Shown here piece by piece: positions 4,494-11,358 of a stretch of 64,000 nucleotides of DNA; position 1 is the stretch's first letter, and every line of letters starts with the position of its first letter. The stretch spans positions 62,001 through 126,000 of the forward strand of contig NZ_LT629780.1 of the NCBI RefSeq assembly GCF_900105885.1, written 5' to 3'. The stretch comes from Pseudomonas guangdongensis (GTDB lineage: Bacteria > Pseudomonadota > Gammaproteobacteria > Pseudomonadales > Pseudomonadaceae). A model generated the notes under the pieces. The model saw nothing but the letters and a program-made list of their open reading frames with translations, made no database searches and had not been told where the DNA came from. Position numbers and translations under genes: made by a program.

Positions 4494-4868
4494 TCAATGC
4501 GGCCGCCACAGCCACAGCGCGCCGCCCAGCGCCAGGCCCAGCACGGCCACCACGAGATTCACCGCCAGGCCCCATTTCACCCCATAGCCCGGAGGAAACT
4601 CGGCCGGCGTCAGCGAGCGCAGCACGCTCAGGTATTGCCTGGCCGAATAGGCTGACGCCGCACTGCCCAGCAGGATGAACGCCAGACCCAACCAGAAACT
4701 CGCCAGCAGGCTCTGGTGCTGCTGGGGATCGGACGACAGGGCCCGGATCAGCAGCCCCGAGCGCTCGACGACGAAGCCGAACGCGATGAGCGACAGGCTG
4801 GTCCGGTTCCAGGCCAGCAAGGTGCGCTCTGCGGCAAAGAGCACCCGGGGATCTTTCAGGTCGGACAT
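4494..4868 (-). CDS. YidH/DUF202 family small inner-membrane protein
   Basis: This 124-residue protein begins with the DUF202 signature DPRVLFAAERTLLAWNRTSLSLIAFGFVVER (residues 6-36). It has three predicted helices: about 24-40, 58-76 and 98-118. DUF202 proteins (YidG/YidH) are membrane proteins of unknown function. The ATG at 4868 is preceded by CAGGAGGATGG, a near-perfect ribosome site. It is divergent from the DUF3147 gene with 75 bases between starts, so both promoters must overlap there. Confidence 0.87.
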   Translation of the reverse strand: MSDLKDPRVLFAAERTLLAWNRTSLSLIAFGFVVERSGLLIRALSSDPQQHQSLLASFWLGLAFILLGSAASAYSARQYLSVLRSLTPAEFPPGYGVKWGLAVNLVVAVLGLALGGALWLWRPH

Positions 4869-4943
4869 GCCATCCTCCTGCACAGCTACGCTGAAATTCG
4901 ACAGACCGTCCGCGCACGGCGGTTTTGCGCCGAGGAGCACACC

Positions 4944-5294
4944 ATGAGCTGGATCGTCGCCAAGTATGCACTGACCGCCGCCCTGGTCGTGCTGGTCTCG
5001 GAAATCGCCAAGCGCAGCGACAAGCTCGGCGGTTTCGTCGCCGCGCTGCCGCTGGTCACCCTCCTGACCCTGGTCTGGCTGTATGTGGAGCGCCAGTCGC
5101 CGGAAAAGATCGCCAACCACGCCTGGTACACCTTCTGGTACGTGCTGCCGACCCTGCCGATGTTTCTCGCCTTCCCGGCGCTGCTGCCGCGCCTGGGCTT
5201 CTGGCCGACCCTGCTGGCCTGCGTGCTCATTACCGTCGTCTGTTTCGGCCTGTTCGCCCTGGCCGTGCGCCGCTTCGGCATTGAGCTGCTGTGA
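4944..5294 (+). CDS. DUF3147 family small membrane protein
   Basis: This 116-residue protein is almost wholly hydrophobic, with four predicted helices. The family-type segment SEIAKRSDKLGGFVAALPLVTLL (residues 19-41) carries the few charged residues in the first half. DUF3147 has no assigned function. The ATG at 4944 has AGGAG 6-10 bases upstream. The gene converges on apbE with only 18 bases between the two stops. Confidence 0.85.
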   Translation: MSWIVAKYALTAALVVLVSEIAKRSDKLGGFVAALPLVTLLTLVWLYVERQSPEKIANHAWYTFWYVLPTLPMFLAFPALLPRLGFWPTLLACVLITVVCFGLFALAVRRFGIELL

Positions 5295-5312: not shown

Positions 5313-6236
5313 TCAGAGTCCCACTGTGACCTCGCAGATCCGCTCGCCCTCGCGCAGCAGGAACACCACGCCCAGGCCCTGCTCGCGGGCCAGCCGGGCA
5401 CCGCGCTCGACGCCCAGCACCATCAGCGCCGTGGCCCAGGCGTCGGCGTACAGGCAACTGCCGGCCAGCACGGTGACCGAGGCGATGCCGTTGTGCAGCG
5501 GCGCGCCGCTGTGCGGGTCGAGGGTGTGGGAATAGCGCTGGCCGTCGCGCTCGCGCCAGTGGCGGTAGTCGCCGGAGGTGGCGATGGCCGTGTCGGCCAG
5601 TTCCAGGCTGGCGAACACCTCGCGGCGGCCGTACTCGGGCTTCTCCAGGGCGACGCGCCAGGCGCCGTCGGGCTTCGCGCCGCGGGCGCGCAGCTCGCCG
5701 TCGATGCCCACCAGATAGCGCTGGATGCCGTGGCGCTCCAGGCAGCGGGCCAGTTCGTCGACGCCGAAGCCCTTGGCGATGCCGTTGAGGTCGAGGCTGA
5801 CCTCGGCCTCCTTGCGCACGGCGCGCCGCTCGGTGTCGAGGGTCAGCGCCGTGGCCGCCGTGCAGCGAGGCGTTGCGCTTGCGCCTGCCGGCGCCGGGCC
5901 GAAGCCCCAGGCGCTGACCTGCGCGCCGAGGGCGATGTCGAAGGCACCGTGCGACAGGCTGCCGACGTGCAGGCCGGCGAGCAGCACCTGGTACAGCTCG
6001 TCCGGCAGCTCGAACCACTGGCCGAGCGGTGTGCGGTTCAGTTGCATCAGGGTGGAGTCCGGCTTCCAGGTCGACATCTGCGCATCGACCCGGTCCACCG
6101 CCGCCTGCAGTTCGGCCTGGATGGGCCGGGTGTCGAGCCCGGCGGCGGCGAAGAACACCGCGGTGAAGCGGCTGCCCATGGTCGGCCCGCTGAGGCTGTA
6201 GCGCAGCAGCGGTTCGCAATCAGTAAACGTCTTCAC
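5313..6236 (-). CDS. apbE: ApbE-type FAD:protein FMN transferase, apparently without export signal
   Basis: ApbE attaches FMN from FAD covalently to a Thr/Ser in target proteins. The 307-aa product carries the family motifs: GPTMGSRF (18-24), SLDLNGIAKGFGVD (147-160), VGIDGEL (176-182), TSGDYRHW (220-227), YSHTLDP (235-241) and the Mg-binding ADAWATALMVLG (264-275). The start is inferred to be GTG at 6236, 17 bases inside the upstream reductase gene and preceded by AGGGG. No hydrophobic signal or lipobox precedes the motif GPTMGSRF, unlike most Gram-negative ApbE lipoproteins. An internal ATG at 6179 would be even shorter. Its likely target is the DUF2271 protein encoded two genes upstream in the same transcription unit. 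Confidence 0.92.
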   Translation of the reverse strand: MKTFTDCEPLLRYSLSGPTMGSRFTAVFFAAAGLDTRPIQAELQAAVDRVDAQMSTWKPDSTLMQLNRTPLGQWFELPDELYQVLLAGLHVGSLSHGAFDIALGAQVSAWGFGPAPAGASATPRCTAATALTLDTERRAVRKEAEVSLDLNGIAKGFGVDELARCLERHGIQRYLVGIDGELRARGAKPDGAWRVALEKPEYGRREVFASLELADTAIATSGDYRHWRERDGQRYSHTLDPHSGAPLHNGIASVTVLAGSCLYADAWATALMVLGVERGARLAREQGLGVVFLLREGERICEVTVGL

Positions 6237-8439
6237 GGAAGCGCCCCTGTGCCTTGAGTTGATCGAGGTTGCTGCCCATCTCGGCCAGCAGGGTTTCCAG
6301 CACGGCGCGCACGCCGGCGGCCATCTCCCGCGAGCCGCAGACCAGCACCTGGGCGCCCTGTTGCAGCAGTGCGCGGATACTGGCGCCATCCTCGCGCAGG
6401 CGGTCCTGCACGTAGGCCGGCGTCGGCCCCTCGGAGAAGGCCCGCTGCAGGCGCTGCAGGCGGCCGTCCGCCAGACACTGCCGGAGCTCCTCGCCATACA
6501 GCTGGTCGCTGGCGTGGCGTCCGCCCCAGTAGAGCTGGATGGGGCGGCGGGATTCATTCCTGCGCACGAAGCCGATCAGCGGCGCCACACCCACGCCGGC
6601 GCCGATCAGCAGCACCGGATGCTCGCCGGCCTGCGGACGGAAGCCCGGATGCGGCTGGAGGCTCGCCGCCAGCTCGGCGCCCGGCTGCAGGTCGTGCAGG
6701 TAGCTGGAGCACAGCCCCTGCGGATGCCGGCGCACGCAGATCTCGACGAAACCGTCGTCAGCGGCGCTGGCGATGGAGTACAGGCGCGGCGCAGTGTCTT
6801 TCTGCGAAGCGTCGGCCTGCGCGGTATCGACCGCCGCGGTGTCGAGCGGACGGATGGCCAGCAGGTCGCCGGGGGCGAAGCGGGTGCTGCCGGGGGCCAC
6901 GGAGAAGCGCAGCACAGCGGCCGGCTGGCCGCCGCGCTCGCTGTAGCACTGGCGCTCCTGCAGGGTCAGGCGCACCGCGCTGCTTGCCAGCAGCGCCGAT
7001 TGCAGGCGCAGCGGGGTACCGAGACATTCGCCGAGCTGCCCGGCCCAAGCGTTCAGCTCGCCGCTAGCCTGGCGGTCGACGCGCTGCAGCGGCAGCAGCG
7101 GCTGGCAACCGCGTTGCAGCAGGGCCTGCTCGACCGCTTCGGCATAGGCGCAGAAGCGCGGGAACTGGCGATCGCCGAAGCCGAGCACCGCCACCGGCAG
7201 GCCGCGGGCGGGCCAGCGGACTTCGGCCAGGCGGCCGAGGAACTGTGCGGCGCTGTCCGGCGCCTGGCCGTCGCCGTAGGTGGCGGCGAGCAGCAGCAGG
7301 CAGCGTGCCTGCGGGTAATCGTCCTGCACGGCGTTCATGGCGGCGACGTGCACCGGCCAGCCGGCAGCCTCGAGTTGCGCCTGCAGCTGGCGGGCGTAGG
7401 TCCAGGTCGAGCCGCCCTGGCTGCCGACCAGGATCACCGCCCGGGCCTCATCGGCCGGTACGCCCTGGTCCTGCACGCCGGCGCGGCTGCGCCGCTGCCA
7501 CCAGCCGAGCAGGCCGCTGCCGCCGAGGAACAGGGTGGACAGCGACAGGCCGGCGAGGACCATGGACCACAGCGGCATGCCCTCGCCGGTGTGCAGGGCG
7601 TAGGCGGTCTCAAAGAGGTTCTGCGCCGCGCCGTTGCGCTGGAAGCTGATCCACTGGCCGCTGGCGGCGTTGACGAAACCGCTGCCGCTGGCGGTACGCA
7701 CGCCGAGGTAGTGGATGTCGTCCGCGGCGCTGGGGAATTCCAGTTCGCGCAGCTGGGGCAGCTCCACCTGGCGCAGCGCCGCGAGGCTGCCCAGCGGCAG
7801 GTGTGGGGTGGCCTGGATGCCTTCCGGCCAGGCCGGCTCGTTGTCGGCGCCGTCGCCGAGCAGGCCCAGGCTGGTCGCCGACAGGTACAGGCCGCTGAGG
7901 GCGAGCACGGCCAGCCCCGGCAGAGTCCAGCGGGCGATCACCGTGTGCCAGTGCAGCATGCCCTGGCCGGCGCGGATCGGCGTCAGCAGGCGGCGCCAGC
8001 CACCGAGGCGGCGGGCCAGCAGGATCGCGCCGCTGATCGCCAGCAGCGCCAGGGCCAGCGCCGCCAGGCCGCTCAGCCAGCGGCCGGTCGAGCCGAGCAG
8101 CAGCTCGCGGTGCAGGTCGCGCAGCCACTCGAGGGTGGCCGACGGGGCGTAGGGGCCGAGGTCTGCGCCGGTCGCCGGGTCGACCACGTGTACCGGCTCC
8201 TCGACATCGCCGCCGAGGGTGGCGAGCAGGGTGCCGTTGGCGCTGCGCTCCAGGCGCTCGACGTTGGGCAGGTGCTGGCTGACGCGCTCGGCGACGACGG
8301 CCACGCTGTCGCCGGGGGCGTCCAGCTGGCCGAACTGTTCGCTCAGGCTGGCGCCCGACAGCACCAGCCCGGTGGCGGCGGAAACCAGCAGCAGGGCGCC
8401 GAGCAGGAGGCTGGTCAGCAGATGCAGGCGACGATTCAT
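6220..8439 (-). CDS. PepSY-domain membrane reductase with flavodoxin, FAD and NAD(P) domains (PiuB-like)
   Basis: This 739-aa protein resembles a PepSY transmembrane module fused to a CysJ/P450-reductase-like C-terminus. Helices lie near residues 7-29, 120-143, 170-190 and 296-315. Histidines fit b-type heme ligands: H110, H163/H165 and H283. The C-terminal half holds a flavodoxin domain (from about 335, ILVGSQGGST; AATYGDGQAPD), a FAD-binding segment RLYSIASA and a nucleotide-binding segment GVGVAPLIGF. Such proteins carry electrons from cytosolic NAD(P)H across the inner membrane; PiuB of P. aeruginosa belongs to iron-siderophore uptake. The stop overlaps apbE and the start lies 16 bases after the DUF2271 gene. 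No TonB receptor is nearby, so a siderophore role is not supported here. Confidence 0.88.
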   Translation of the reverse strand: MNRRLHLLTSLLLGALLLVSAATGLVLSGASLSEQFGQLDAPGDSVAVVAERVSQHLPNVERLERSANGTLLATLGGDVEEPVHVVDPATGADLGPYAPSATLEWLRDLHRELLLGSTGRWLSGLAALALALLAISGAILLARRLGGWRRLLTPIRAGQGMLHWHTVIARWTLPGLAVLALSGLYLSATSLGLLGDGADNEPAWPEGIQATPHLPLGSLAALRQVELPQLRELEFPSAADDIHYLGVRTASGSGFVNAASGQWISFQRNGAAQNLFETAYALHTGEGMPLWSMVLAGLSLSTLFLGGSGLLGWWQRRSRAGVQDQGVPADEARAVILVGSQGGSTWTYARQLQAQLEAAGWPVHVAAMNAVQDDYPQARCLLLLAATYGDGQAPDSAAQFLGRLAEVRWPARGLPVAVLGFGDRQFPRFCAYAEAVEQALLQRGCQPLLPLQRVDRQASGELNAWAGQLGECLGTPLRLQSALLASSAVRLTLQERQCYSERGGQPAAVLRFSVAPGSTRFAPGDLLAIRPLDTAAVDTAQADASQKDTAPRLYSIASAADDGFVEICVRRHPQGLCSSYLHDLQPGAELAASLQPHPGFRPQAGEHPVLLIGAGVGVAPLIGFVRRNESRRPIQLYWGGRHASDQLYGEELRQCLADGRLQRLQRAFSEGPTPAYVQDRLREDGASIRALLQQGAQVLVCGSREMAAGVRAVLETLLAEMGSNLDQLKAQGRFREDVY

Positions 8440-8455
8440 GGTGGCCTCGTGGGGA

Positions 8456-8926
8456 TCAGAAACGGTAGCTGAGGCGGTCGATGTAGCCGCTGCCGCTGGC
8501 TTCGCCCGGCTCGCGGGTCAGCGGCAGGCGGACCTCGGCGCGGTTGTCACGCTTGTCCTCGACCGCGCTGTCGACGCGGATCTCGTAGCCGGCATCGAGC
8601 AGGGCCTGCTCCAGTTCGACCTCGACCGTCAGGTTGTCGCCACTGCCGACGCTGGCGCCGGTCAGGCCGTCGTACTCGGCGCTCTGCGCGCCGCCACCGC
8701 GGGTCCAGTCGCGCAGGTGGCGGTAGTACTTGGCCTTCTTGCCGGCGACCCACAGGGTCTTCTGGTACTGGCCGTCGGCATCGGTCAGGTAGATGGCCAG
8801 GTAGGCGCCCTTGCCGCGGTATTCCTTGAGGGTGACGTCCAGGGTCAGGGACTGGGTCTGTGCCTGGGCCAGCAGCGGTGCGGCGGTGGCGCCGGCCAGG
8901 GCCAGCGAGATGAGCGTCTTGTGCAT
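8456..8926 (-). CDS. Exported DUF2271 protein with predicted FMN-attachment motif
   Basis: This 156-aa precursor has a clear Sec signal peptide: MHK, then a hydrophobic stretch, with probable cleavage after AQA at about residue 23. The mature part is a beta-rich DUF2271 domain. At residues 86-92 it reads DGLTGAS, matching the ApbE flavinylation consensus D-x-x-S/T-G-A-S/T, with Ser92 the predicted FMN acceptor. This suggests a periplasmic flavoprotein that exchanges electrons with the adjacent PepSY reductase. Family function is unproven. AGGAG lies 8 bases before the ATG. It is the first gene of a three-gene unit with the reductase and apbE. Confidence 0.88.
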   Translation of the reverse strand: MHKTLISLALAGATAAPLLAQAQTQSLTLDVTLKEYRGKGAYLAIYLTDADGQYQKTLWVAGKKAKYYRHLRDWTRGGGAQSAEYDGLTGASVGSGDNLTVEVELEQALLDAGYEIRVDSAVEDKRDNRAEVRLPLTREPGEASGSGYIDRLSYRF

Positions 8927-9003
8927 GGGGCGACTCCTGCAGGTTCGATGTGGCCAGGTTAGGCAACCGCGATGAATTCAGGCTGAAGGCCTGCGGGACG
9001 CGG

Positions 9004-9019
9004 CTTAATCAGGACTTAA
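9004..9019 (+). promoter_or_regulatory. CTTAA-N6-CTTAA direct repeat, PmrA/QseB-type response-regulator box
   Basis: Two CTTAA half-sites start exactly 11 bases apart (9004 and 9015), with TCAGGA between them. This arrangement is the known binding pattern of PmrA/QseB-type OmpR-family regulators. The site lies in the 131-base divergent region between the DUF2271 gene and the P1B-5 ATPase gene, 38 bases before the latter's ATG. GATACC at 9023-9028 could be its -10 element. The assignment rests on the motif alone; no regulator gene is in the window. Confidence 0.5.
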
Positions 9020-9057
9020 GCTGATACCTGTAAGCCCGTGCGACCGGGGAGGAGAAC

Positions 9058-11358
9058 ATGGACCTGAGCATCTGGGAGCGCCTGCTGCGCTGGCGCGACC
9101 CGGCACTGTTGCTGCTGAGCGGACTGGCGCTGCTGGCCGGCGGCCTGGCCCAGTGGCGGGGCGACGCCGGACTGGCGGCGGCGAGCTGGGCGGCGGGCAG
9201 CCTGCTGATGGCGCTGGTGCTGGGCGTCGAGATCGTCCGCCGCCTGCTGCGCGGCGAAACCGGCGTCGACCTGCTGGCCCTGCTGGCCATCGGCGCCGCC
9301 CTGGCGTTCGAGCAATGGCTGGTCGCCGCGGTGGTGGCGCTGATGCTGGCCAGCGGCCGCACCCTGGAGTTCCTCACCCACCAACGCGCCGAGCGCGAGC
9401 TGCGCGCGCTGATCGACCGCGCGCCGCGCGAGGCCTGGCTGGACGAGGGCGGCGACCTGCGCCGGGTGCCGGTCGAGCAGGTGCGGATCGGTCAGGTGCT
9501 GCTGGTGCGCCTGGGCGAGGTGGTGCCGGTCGACGGCCGGCTGCTCAGCCCCAGCGCCAGCCTCGACGAGTCGGCACTGAGCGGCGAGTCGCTGCCAGTG
9601 ACACGCCCGTGCGACAGCCTGCTGGCCAGCGGCGTGGTCAACATCGGCGCGCCGTTCCAGCTGCAGGCCACGCAGACCGCCGCGCAGAGCACCTATGCCG
9701 GGGTGGTGCGGCTGGCCGAGGCGGCGCGCCGCTCGCGCGCGCCCTTCGTGCGCCTGGCCGACCGCTACGCGCTGTTCTTCATCCCCTTGAGCCTGGCGCT
9801 GGCGGGACTGGCCGGATGGCTGAGCGGCGATCCGCTGCGCGTGCTGGCGGTGCTGGTGGTGGCCACGCCCTGCCCGCTGATCCTCGCCGTGCCGATCGCC
9901 ATCATGGGCGGCATCTCGCGGGCCGCGCGGCGCGGCATCCTGATCAAGGACGGCGCCACCCTGGAGGCGCTGGCCGGGGTGCAGCAGCTGTTCCTCGACA
10001 AGACCGGCACCCTGACCAGCGGCCAGGCCCGGCTGCAGTCGGTGGAGGTCAGGGACGACGGCGATCCGCAGCGGGTGCTCGGCTGGGCGGCGTCGCTGGC
10101 CCAGGCGTCGGTGCACCCGATCTCCCAGGCCATCGTCTGCGCCGCCCAGCAGCAAGGGTTGCCGCTGCAGGCGCCGCAGGCGGTGGAGGAAAGCCCCGGC
10201 GCCGGGCTGTGCGGTCGGGTCGACGGCCATCGGGTGCGGCTCGGCACCCTGTCGTTCGCCCAGGCCGAGCAAGCGGACAACCGCTGGGCGGCGAGCATCC
10301 TGCGGCGCATGGACTACGCCGCCTGCGGCGGCAGCTTCGTGCAGGTCGACGGCGAGCTGGTCGGCGCCCTGCTGTTCGCCGACAGCGTGCGCCGGGAAAC
10401 GCCGCGGGTGATCCGGCGCCTGCGCGCCGCCGGCATCCGGCGCATCGTCATGCTCACCGGCGACCGCCTGGAAACCGCCGAGATGATCGCCCTGGCCGCC
10501 GGCATCGACGAGCTGCGCGCCGGGCTGTCCCCGGCGGACAAGGTATGCGCCGTGCAGGAGGCGCGCAGCGCCGGGATGACCCTGATGGTCGGCGACGGCA
10601 TCAACGACGCGCCGGCGCTGGCGGCGGCCGACGTCGGCATGGCGATGGGCGCGGCCGGCGCCACCGCCTCGGCGGAGGCGGCGGGCGCGGTGTTGCTGGT
10701 CGACCGTCTGGATCGCCTGGTCGAGGCGCTGGAGATCGCCCGGCAGACCCGCGCGATCGCCCGCCAGGGCGTGCTGGCCGGCATGGGGCTGTCGCTGTTG
10801 GCCATGCTGGCCGCGGCCTTCGGCTACCTGCCGGCGCTGGCCGGCGCGGTGGTGCAGGAGCTGATCGACGTCGCGGTGATCCTCTATGCGCTGCGCGCGC
10901 TAGGCCCGCACGGGGCGGCGACACCCTGGCTCAGCGGCGAGCAGATCGACCGTCTGCAGGACAAGCACGCCCAGCTGACGCGCGTGCTGGATCGCCTGCA
11001 GCAACTGGCCGTGGAGTACCACCGGCTGGAGCCGGAGGCCGGACGCCGGGCGTTCGCCGCACTGGTGGATGACCTGCAGCTGCTGCTGGTCGAACACGAG
11101 CACGACGACGAGCGCAGCCTCTACCCCTGGCTGTCGGCGCAACTGGCCGGCGAAGACCCGCTGTCGGCGCTGAGCCGCGGGCATCGTGAGATATTCCGCC
11201 TGATTCACCTGCTGACTCGCATGCGTGACGACCTGCTGGAGGATCCGGCGGCCATCCCGAGCGATGAGCTGCAGACGCTGCTGATTCGCCTGGACACCCT
11301 GGTGCGCCTGCACTTCGAGCAGGAGGAGGAGCTGTTCGAGTGCCTGGACAGGCGTTGA
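9058..11358 (+). CDS. P1B-5-type metal-transporting ATPase with C-terminal hemerythrin domain
   Basis: This 766-aa inner-membrane P-type ATPase has SGES (175-178), the membrane metal motif TPCP (270-273), phosphorylated Asp314 in DKTGT, HP at 353-354, TGDR (467-470) and GDGIND (512-517). It lacks an N-terminal metal-binding domain. TPCP together with QELID (600-604) in a late helix fits subgroup P1B-5, whose studied members move Ni or Fe. Residues from about 625 form a hemerythrin-like four-helix domain with candidate di-iron ligands H655, H680, H682, H709, E711, H752 and E756. GGGGAGGAG precedes the ATG. It is divergent from the DUF2271-reductase-apbE unit, which suggests shared control and an iron-related role; the substrate is inferred. 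Confidence 0.9.
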   Translation: MDLSIWERLLRWRDPALLLLSGLALLAGGLAQWRGDAGLAAASWAAGSLLMALVLGVEIVRRLLRGETGVDLLALLAIGAALAFEQWLVAAVVALMLASGRTLEFLTHQRAERELRALIDRAPREAWLDEGGDLRRVPVEQVRIGQVLLVRLGEVVPVDGRLLSPSASLDESALSGESLPVTRPCDSLLASGVVNIGAPFQLQATQTAAQSTYAGVVRLAEAARRSRAPFVRLADRYALFFIPLSLALAGLAGWLSGDPLRVLAVLVVATPCPLILAVPIAIMGGISRAARRGILIKDGATLEALAGVQQLFLDKTGTLTSGQARLQSVEVRDDGDPQRVLGWAASLAQASVHPISQAIVCAAQQQGLPLQAPQAVEESPGAGLCGRVDGHRVRLGTLSFAQAEQADNRWAASILRRMDYAACGGSFVQVDGELVGALLFADSVRRETPRVIRRLRAAGIRRIVMLTGDRLETAEMIALAAGIDELRAGLSPADKVCAVQEARSAGMTLMVGDGINDAPALAAADVGMAMGAAGATASAEAAGAVLLVDRLDRLVEALEIARQTRAIARQGVLAGMGLSLLAMLAAAFGYLPALAGAVVQELIDVAVILYALRALGPHGAATPWLSGEQIDRLQDKHAQLTRVLDRLQQLAVEYHRLEPEAGRRAFAALVDDLQLLLVEHEHDDERSLYPWLSAQLAGEDPLSALSRGHREIFRLIHLLTRMRDDLLEDPAAIPSDELQTLLIRLDTLVRLHFEQEEELFECLDRR

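Follow-up and report, generated by a model that had tools for sequence, protein, structure and literature searches.

We analyzed a 64-kb window of the Pseudomonas guangdongensis genome (positions 62001-126000 of the 3.19-Mb contig NZ_LT629780.1, hereafter "the window") and characterized an operon for a DUF2271 protein, a PepSY-type membrane reductase and ApbE, which belongs to the FAD:protein FMN transferase family (FAD, flavin adenine dinucleotide; FMN, flavin mononucleotide). With a probability of roughly two in three, the operon encodes a PepSY-type covalent-flavin electron-transfer unit that is activated by the regulator BqsR (also called CarR) in this lineage and by a local two-component system in relatives. 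In our best reading, the unit would be induced by ferrous-iron or cation stress, and the flavin may be attached before export. Specifically, cytosolic NAD(P)H (reduced nicotinamide adenine dinucleotide (phosphate)) would donate electrons to the FAD and FMN domains, which would hand them to heme in the membrane part of the PepSY protein; from this heme they would reach FMN on Ser92 of exported DUF2271, and from FMN an acceptor. The likeliest acceptors are metal species, ferric or other, and an oxidized target in the envelope. The Fe(II)-responding BqsR would bind tandem TTAAG/TTCAG half-sites beside a -10 hexamer to activate the operon, a task that an adjacent, distinct two-component system would take over in related lineages.

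Architecture of the probable flavin unit

The three genes form one minus-strand operon, in which DUF2271 is followed after 16 bases by the reductase gene, and apbE overlaps the latter by 17 bases, exactly as given in a preliminary description of this locus (Table 1). We compared the operon with 75 related DUF2271 loci from named genomes and with a second set of 38 genomes carrying the gene, out of 298 genomes of the family. The closest named relatives by DUF2271 identity were Pseudomonas sp. A-1 (97%), P. linyingensis (91%) and P. sagittaria (89%). A reductase match was present beside DUF2271 in 74 of the 75 loci (L102 being the exception), and apbE stood beside both genes in 64 of the fetched stretches. 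It was not found in the fetched stretch of nine longer-flank relatives (L097, L098 and L102-L108), and the stretches of L042 and L081 stop shortly past DUF2271.

The Sec signal that the preliminary description assigned to DUF2271 was confirmed as a hydrophobic leader, as judged by sequence and hydropathy rather than SignalP; in the 75 relatives the hydropathy of this leader had a median of 2.31 and a minimum of 1.72. The DGLTGAS motif was likewise found where that description had placed it. The corresponding pattern D..[ST]GA[ST] occurred in DUF2271 at 75 of the 75 related loci, 64 of them with apbE, so that the proposed check for co-occurrence with apbE turned up no DUF2271 homologue lacking the motif. 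In the sequences compared, the motif is beyond chance. DUF2271 of A. ursilacus was reported to be flavinylated by its ApbE, and exchange of the motif threonine for alanine to abolish flavinylation (PMC8238504); the window protein is predicted to be flavinylated at Ser92. A single AlphaFold model of DUF2271, made from a 30-row alignment out of 76 sequences, was beta-rich with a mean predicted local distance difference test (pLDDT) score of 77.6; where the motif begins, residues 83-88 scored below 50. Given this mean score and zero fold matches in the PDB at E <= 0.001, we make no fold claim for DUF2271. A model of DUF2271 is discussed, together with the PepSY heme structure, in a 2024 paper (PMC11334425).

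The reductase combines the domains named in the preliminary description, namely PepSY_TM (PF03929, residues 3-316, 122.5 bits), Flavodoxin_1 (336-459), NAD_binding_1 (611-711) and FAD_binding_6, the last with a match barely above its cut-off. NCBIfam cysJ/FNR relatives matched it below their cut-offs, and its PDB relatives were CPR, NOS and CysJ. In line with the heme-type membrane histidines noticed earlier, the membrane domain has His6, His110, His165 and His283, with 99-100% conservation across 75 reductases (that of the window and those of 74 relatives). PepSY heme proteins of the FoxB type have conserved membrane histidines for two hemes, two at each site; the four histidines here were counted without alignment to FoxB, and the PepSY membrane domain is a candidate heme-binding domain. 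The flavinylation motif was also sought in 75 cluster reductases and was present in only one, that of L060, which carries a full motif of its own (DGQTGAT at residue 80).

A PepSY-like flavinylation class was described by Méheust et al. (2021, PMC8238504) as a PF03929 or PF16357 protein clustered with ApbE, FMN-bind, DUF2271 or DUF3570. Their survey gives 3220 such clusters, 2833 with DUF2271, 1500 with DUF4198 and 167 with VIT1, and 1077 PepSY genes with the NAD-binding domain PF00175. In the window the PF03929 protein is directly joined by ApbE and DUF2271 genes. The class calls for at least one exported or lipidated flavinylation gene product, which is found here in the DUF2271 leader by hydropathy; the usual export or lipidation of ApbE, typical of the class rather than a stated requirement, is not seen in the cluster ApbE. 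A PepSY_TM protein with an NAD-binding domain, DUF2271 with [S/T]GA[S/T] and an adjacent apbE are common to these systems and ours, and VIT1 neighbors, found here in relatives, are likewise reported for them, whereas the window operon differs from those described in PMC8238504 in lacking DUF4198 and a TonB receptor, in a two-component-type operator instead of a Fur one, and in its leaderless ApbE. The core architecture is therefore already known (PMC8238504). As the unit is of this published kind, the earlier interpretation stands: the path from NAD(P)H through flavins and membrane heme to a periplasmic covalent-flavin DUF2271 is supported, and the link of DUF2271 and PepSY proteins to flavinylation that it mentioned is found in the survey. 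Two points that the preliminary description lacked are a promoter that points to two-component control of ferrous-iron type, not iron starvation, and an ApbE without an export signal.

Promoter operators and their proposed regulators

The 131-bp divergent intergenic region upstream of DUF2271 contains TTAAGTCCTGATTAAG (9004-9019), an exact copy of the published BqsR consensus TTAAG-N6-TTAAG. This tandem is the BqsR operator, whose downstream pentamer, in a BqsR promoter, has an overlap with the -35 region (PMC4682146); BqsS is reported to sense Fe2+ (PMC12666569). With up to one mismatch, the box occurs at one place in the window in a search of both orientations, where 0.07 would be expected, and the whole host genome has two exact copies against none of a reversed-pattern control. 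This distal box lies 32 bp upstream of a proximal one. A sigma-70 consensus scan of positions 8800-9200 gave no match, and the promoter was instead located by comparison. When the window was aligned with 16 box-bearing relatives, a second pair, TTCAG-N6-TT[CA]A[GT], became apparent with a TANNNT hexamer ten bases on. The distal pair, with up to one mismatch, starts exactly 32 bp before the proximal pair in 16 of 17 sequences (exception, L044), these 17 being the window and relatives chosen for having a distal box somewhere.

In 76 upstream regions we then tried every spacer from 5 to 15 between pair and hexamer, using a relaxed pattern (TTCAG-N6-pentamer-N10-[TC]A...T at a spacer of ten) and a strict one (TANNNT). 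The pattern was found at a spacer of 10 in 61 regions (25 strict), a count that is not a probability, because some of the same promoters had served to define the rule and the sequences are related; spacer 5 gave three regions (relaxed only), and 6-9 and 11-15 gave none. As background, when the loci were tiled into 9672 windows of 300 bp, the strict pattern was present in 113. Its 119 occurrences in the 75 loci (2.9 Mb, both strands) include 109 within 800 bp upstream of DUF2271, of which 23 are at the DUF2271 promoter and the others surround divergent small-PepSY/regulator genes (plus strand 46, minus strand 40). The remaining ten are at the divergent two-component promoter of five Neptuniibacter/Amphritea loci (L103-L107). 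There the operator lies about 1.9 kb upstream of DUF2271, and about 1.4 kb separate it from the small PepSY gene that neighbors DUF2271; apbE was not found in the flank.

The distribution of operators and regulators was then compared across relatives. Within 300 bp upstream of DUF2271, the exact box was present in 12 of 75 loci and the box with up to one mismatch in 16, compared with 0 and 0.26 in Markov resamples of those regions. Within about 450 bp, the exact box was present in 14 of the 38 genomes, including all seven own-genus genomes with the gene (coordinates read off). In 54 of the 75 loci, tblastn detected a response-regulator homologue no more than 2.5 kb upstream and on the opposite strand. 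Two of the 54 are poor (L060, a 40% homologue; L094, a short gene fragment), and in most of them the homologue is accompanied by genes for a kinase and a small PepSY protein. The pattern TT[AC]AG-N6-TT[AC]AG occurred in 19 loci, 17 of which lack a local regulator. Among the 38 genomes, a local regulator was found in 14 (E <= 1e-62), and none of these coincided with the 14 exact-box genomes (hypergeometric 2e-4, with shared ancestry ignored). Of the ten genomes with neither, eight carry a pair of TT type proximally, whereas G045 carries none (G052 was not read).

When [TC]A...T was allowed for the hexamer, the geometry was present upstream in 29 of 30 whole-genome loci, from 30 of the 38 genomes; it was at the proximal place in 26 and solely about 400 bp upstream in G034, G133 and G143. 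The second half-site was GTCAG in nine of nine genomes with a local regulator and in none of the 21 without, 20 of which have TT-type half-sites. In these sequences, half-site type tracks the available regulator. In G215, GTCAG lies in a site 187 bp upstream, and the proximal site has TTCAG. At L092 and L094 the local two-component genes were not found (L094 keeps the regulator fragment) and the promoter reads TTCAG-N6-TTCAG, which looks like loss of the local system. This local system resembles the DbfQRS/small-PepSY modules in consisting of a small PepSY gene, a response regulator and a kinase; the output studied for DbfQRS in PMC12714742 is biofilm control, whereas the relatives' module adjoins a covalent-flavin operon.

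The host has nine OmpR-type DNA-binding-domain matches, and we assigned the one at C1:2611992-2612666 to BqsR. Its best PDB matches were both to CarR, with E 1.1e-63 for the receiver and 1.4e-45 for the DNA-binding domain, the latter barely ahead of BasR (1.2e-44). Two small PepSY genes come before this gene and a kinase gene after it, which is the bqsP-Q-R-S order of P. aeruginosa (Pseudomonas aeruginosa). The host bqsP promoter reads TTCAG-N6-TTAAG-N10-TAGAGT, and that of a carO-like gene of the BOF family, to which CarO presumably belongs, reads TTAAG-N6-TTCAG-N10-TAGCCT. In all, the geometry was found at four distinct host places, namely this operon, bqsP, the BOF-family gene and a sulfatase/DUF3413 gene, in a scan of about 223 kb (overlaps and the window included) whose stretches were mostly picked for TTAAG-like sites. 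The P. aeruginosa BqsSR regulon includes bqsP-S and carO (PA0320) (PMC12802237). The tandem TTAAG-N6-TTAAG, the gene order and a CarR-like regulator are thus common to the P. aeruginosa BqsRS (CarRS) system and the host (PMC4682146, PMC12666569, PMC12802237), while no flavin/PepSY-TM unit is among the regulon entries examined in PMC12802237. For the BqsS iron ligand, which is R44-E45-x-x-E48-N49 in P. aeruginosa, we counted D45-E-A-E48 in the host kinase (unaligned, the start being assumed), and this difference was not used. At the sulfatase/DUF3413 gene (L120:5081-6916, host C1:2717980), possibly an envelope-modifying BqsR target, the operator TTAAG-N6-TTAAG-N10-TAGGCT lies at L120:4981-5012. 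We had considered galU as the gene served by this second genome-wide exact box and dropped it, because the geometry is directed at the sulfatase/DUF3413 gene on the other strand.

In the literature, two-component, response-regulator, histidine-kinase, P-type ATPase and hemerythrin terms occur in the survey text of PMC8238504 only in one reference title. Among the open-licence PMC papers listed in our searches, none was seen to tie DUF2271 or flavinylation to control by BqsR or another two-component system, which is weak evidence of absence.

Several observations weigh against the proposed unit and its control by BqsR. BqsR is present in 36 of the 38 genomes, box or no box, so that its presence does not discriminate. 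Single-mismatch boxes are not enriched genome-wide (10+6 compared with 15+15 for the reversed pattern), and weak box matches therefore carry no weight alone. Seven of 11 host places with an exact or single-mismatch box lack the geometry, the second proximal pentamer of the window reads TTCAT instead of TTCAG, and 15 of the 75 loci (Alcaligenaceae, Oceanospirillales and others) are without the pattern within 300 bp of DUF2271. FoxB, a solved PepSY protein, was not among the best 60 of 178 PDB matches for the reductase. Neither a signal peptide nor a lipobox was seen, by hydropathy and not SignalP, on the cluster ApbE of the window or of 59 of 59 readable relatives. Earlier P. aeruginosa work ties CarRS also to Ca2+. 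Finally, PmrA/QseB-class regulators read similar tandem half-sites, and another host regulator could use those described here.

Table 1. Coordinates of the features discussed, numbered within the window.
Feature	Position	Strand	Basis
Distal operator, TTAAG-N6-TTAAG, exact published BqsR consensus	9004-9019	-	Pattern search
Proximal operator, TTCAG-N6-TTCAT-N10-TAACCT, tandem pentamers and -10-like hexamer	8956-8987	-	Comparison with relatives
DUF2271 protein, Sec-type leader, predicted FMN carrier	8456-8926	-	156 residues, PF10029 E 1.2e-34
DGLTGAS flavinylation motif, Ser92 the predicted FMN site	8651-8671	-	Sequence, residues 86-92
CysJ-like reductase (flavodoxin and FAD/NAD(P)-binding parts) in one protein with a PepSY-TM membrane domain of heme type	6220-8439	-	739 residues, Pfam
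apbE, FAD:protein FMN transferase family, without visible signal peptide or lipobox	5313-6236	-	PF02424 E 2.9e-77, GTG start
P1B-5-type metal ATPase with C-terminal hemerythrin domain	9058-11358	+	Pfam E1-E2_ATPase, Hydrolase, Hemerythrin

Acceptor, flavin attachment and other explanations

With regard to the acceptor, an oxidized envelope component, as in oxidative-damage repair of the MsrQ/MsrP kind, could take the place of a metal, although we consider this rather unlikely. It would agree with two paper titles, one describing BqsRS genes as promoting cationic stress tolerance and the other a heme membrane donor that feeds the methionine sulfoxide reductase MsrP, and with the likeness in fold of MsrQ and PepSY reported in PMC11334425. 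However, the operon contains no acceptor gene, and metal transporters (P1B-5 and VIT1) are its neighbors in two lineages. Their recurrence beside the unit is weak evidence for the acceptor.

We placed the start of the cluster ApbE at a GTG (6236), 16 residues ahead of GPTMGSR; the ADAWATAL and H237 (catalytic-type) regions are conserved. The longest apbE of the open-reading-frame finder (ATG 6557) was rejected as merely the same frame prolonged upstream across the reductase gene. Among the 64 relatives with an apbE match, 59 were readable via G.TMG[ST]R[FY], and five motif variants were left out. Counting the window, 53 of 60 sequences have a frame that closes no more than 40 residues before the motif; longer open frames across the reductase end were seen in seven (the window, L037, L038, L039, L044, L055 and L109), the one in the window having an ATG 67 codons upstream. 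In the 59 relatives the upstream stretch (up to 40 residues) was not hydrophobic, its hydropathy having a median of -0.44 and a maximum of 1.05. The first 35 residues of the window ApbE peak at 1.58, owing to FTAVFFAAAG, which lies past the motif and inside the fold. The sole other host ApbE match lies where the nqr genes end; it carries an LTGC lipobox, and its leader hydropathy is 2.26.

According to PMC12052999, most ApbEs appear secreted, and seven-residue tags can be flavinylated. A cytosolic Klebsiella ApbE described there is, like the cluster ApbE, without a signal peptide, but it serves a soluble fumarate reductase and not an exported protein. In E. coli, modified preproteins are able to traverse Sec (PMC3418276). 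Taken together with the leaderless ApbE, these reports make cytosolic flavinylation before export possible. We tentatively propose, at clearly less than even odds, that the leaderless ApbE flavinylates the DUF2271 preprotein in the cytosol before Sec export and that the unit is made on demand when a two-component system senses ferrous iron or cation stress. Alternatively, and also doubtful, the cluster ApbE may modify a cytosolic protein or something else, while the nqr-linked lipoprotein ApbE flavinylates DUF2271 in the periplasm. The lipobox of the latter and the missing signal on the former would fit such a division of labor, as would the nine longer-flank relatives without apbE in the fetched stretch and the existence of cytosolic ApbEs with cytosolic targets in Klebsiella (PMC12052999). 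On the other hand, apbE adjoins DUF2271 and the reductase gene in most loci, and no cytosolic target is evident in the operon, given that only one of the 75 cluster reductases has the motif.

The operator could also be real and yet be read by another PmrA/QseB-class host regulator, such as that at C1:15687, instead of BqsR, which we regard as unlikely. The C1:15687 regulator is nearest to BasR in the PDB, and the local regulator of four compared relatives is 44-46% identical to both BqsR and C1:15687. Against this, the distal box is the exact BqsR consensus, the geometry is common to the bqsP and BOF-family promoters, and of the nine host DNA-binding-domain loci (about 1.5 kb on each side) only that of BqsR carries the geometry, which was found at none of the other eight.

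An ordinary PepSY/DUF2271 iron-uptake reductase, controlled by Fur and active in iron starvation, is quite improbable, considering that the top match in the intergenic region to a Fur consensus is poor, at 10 of 19 bases, that two-component-type operators are present instead, and that the operon has neither a TonB receptor nor DUF4198, while a separate host cluster has both. In its favor, the families are the same as in the Fur-repressed Shewanella and Caulobacter systems, and a PepSY protein with iron reductase activity, VciB, is cited in PMC8238504. The separate cluster (C1:2037192-2043245; L122:7193-13246) has a TonB receptor, a PepSY_TM-like protein, DUF2271 (DGISGAT), DUF4198 and a separate CysJ-like reductase, and looks like the iron-uptake type. 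The top Fur match in its 18-kb stretch, 13 of 19 between two TonB-receptor genes, is not decisive, because the 64-kb window also reaches 13 elsewhere. Since the host has two apbE matches and neither is in this cluster, its DUF2271 would need ApbE from elsewhere.

Neighboring genes and significance

The P1B-5 gene is divergent from the operon across the intergenic region. TPCP, QE..D......ALR and HxE were found in seven of seven aligned P1B-5 sequences, and TPCP, in a transmembrane segment, and QE..D are marks of the class. Nia is reportedly named beside P1B-5 ATPases with a hemerythrin domain. The distal box also faces the P1B-5 gene, where the -10 would be TAAGCC, by eye unconserved in aligned relatives; as this hexamer misses the final T and is not kept, co-regulation is at most suggested. 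The hemerythrin ligand motif of P1B-5 ATPases is given as H-HxxxE-HxE-HxxxxD (PMC9388753); the window protein shares TPCP, QE..D......ALR and HxE with these ATPases, but its other ligand positions differ (HxxxD, HxxxE).

P1B-5 is adjacent and divergent in all five own-genus genomes that have it (of seven), on the same strand upstream in L045 and L049, and within 10 kb in L080 and L096; elsewhere it is mostly unlinked. We rejected it as a general partner: among eight other genomes, it was on the same contig about 10 kb away in one and about 33 kb away in another, and farther away or on another contig in six. A VIT1 match was present in the fetched stretch of 29 of the 75 loci. Downstream of apbE, small proteins of DUF202 and PRK09272 type are encoded at window positions 4494-4880 (minus strand) and 4851-5294 (plus strand), with no visible operon link.

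PepSY/DUF2271 flavin units are common and are read as iron-uptake reductases. What is new here is a pair of predictions, namely a two-component operator logic that ties a subfamily of these units to a ferrous-iron sensor, and a leaderless ApbE encoded beside an exported substrate. If ferrous iron induces the subfamily via BqsR-type systems, the inducing condition would be the opposite of iron starvation, and the role would lie in metal or envelope stress defense; a defined inducer would also make the question of the acceptor testable. A leaderless ApbE beside a Sec-exported substrate offers a clean case for asking if ApbE acts before export. If the flavin is indeed attached before export and the unit made on demand, a covalent flavoprotein would be built inside the cell and used outside it, in a metal-stress instead of a metal-hunger circuit.

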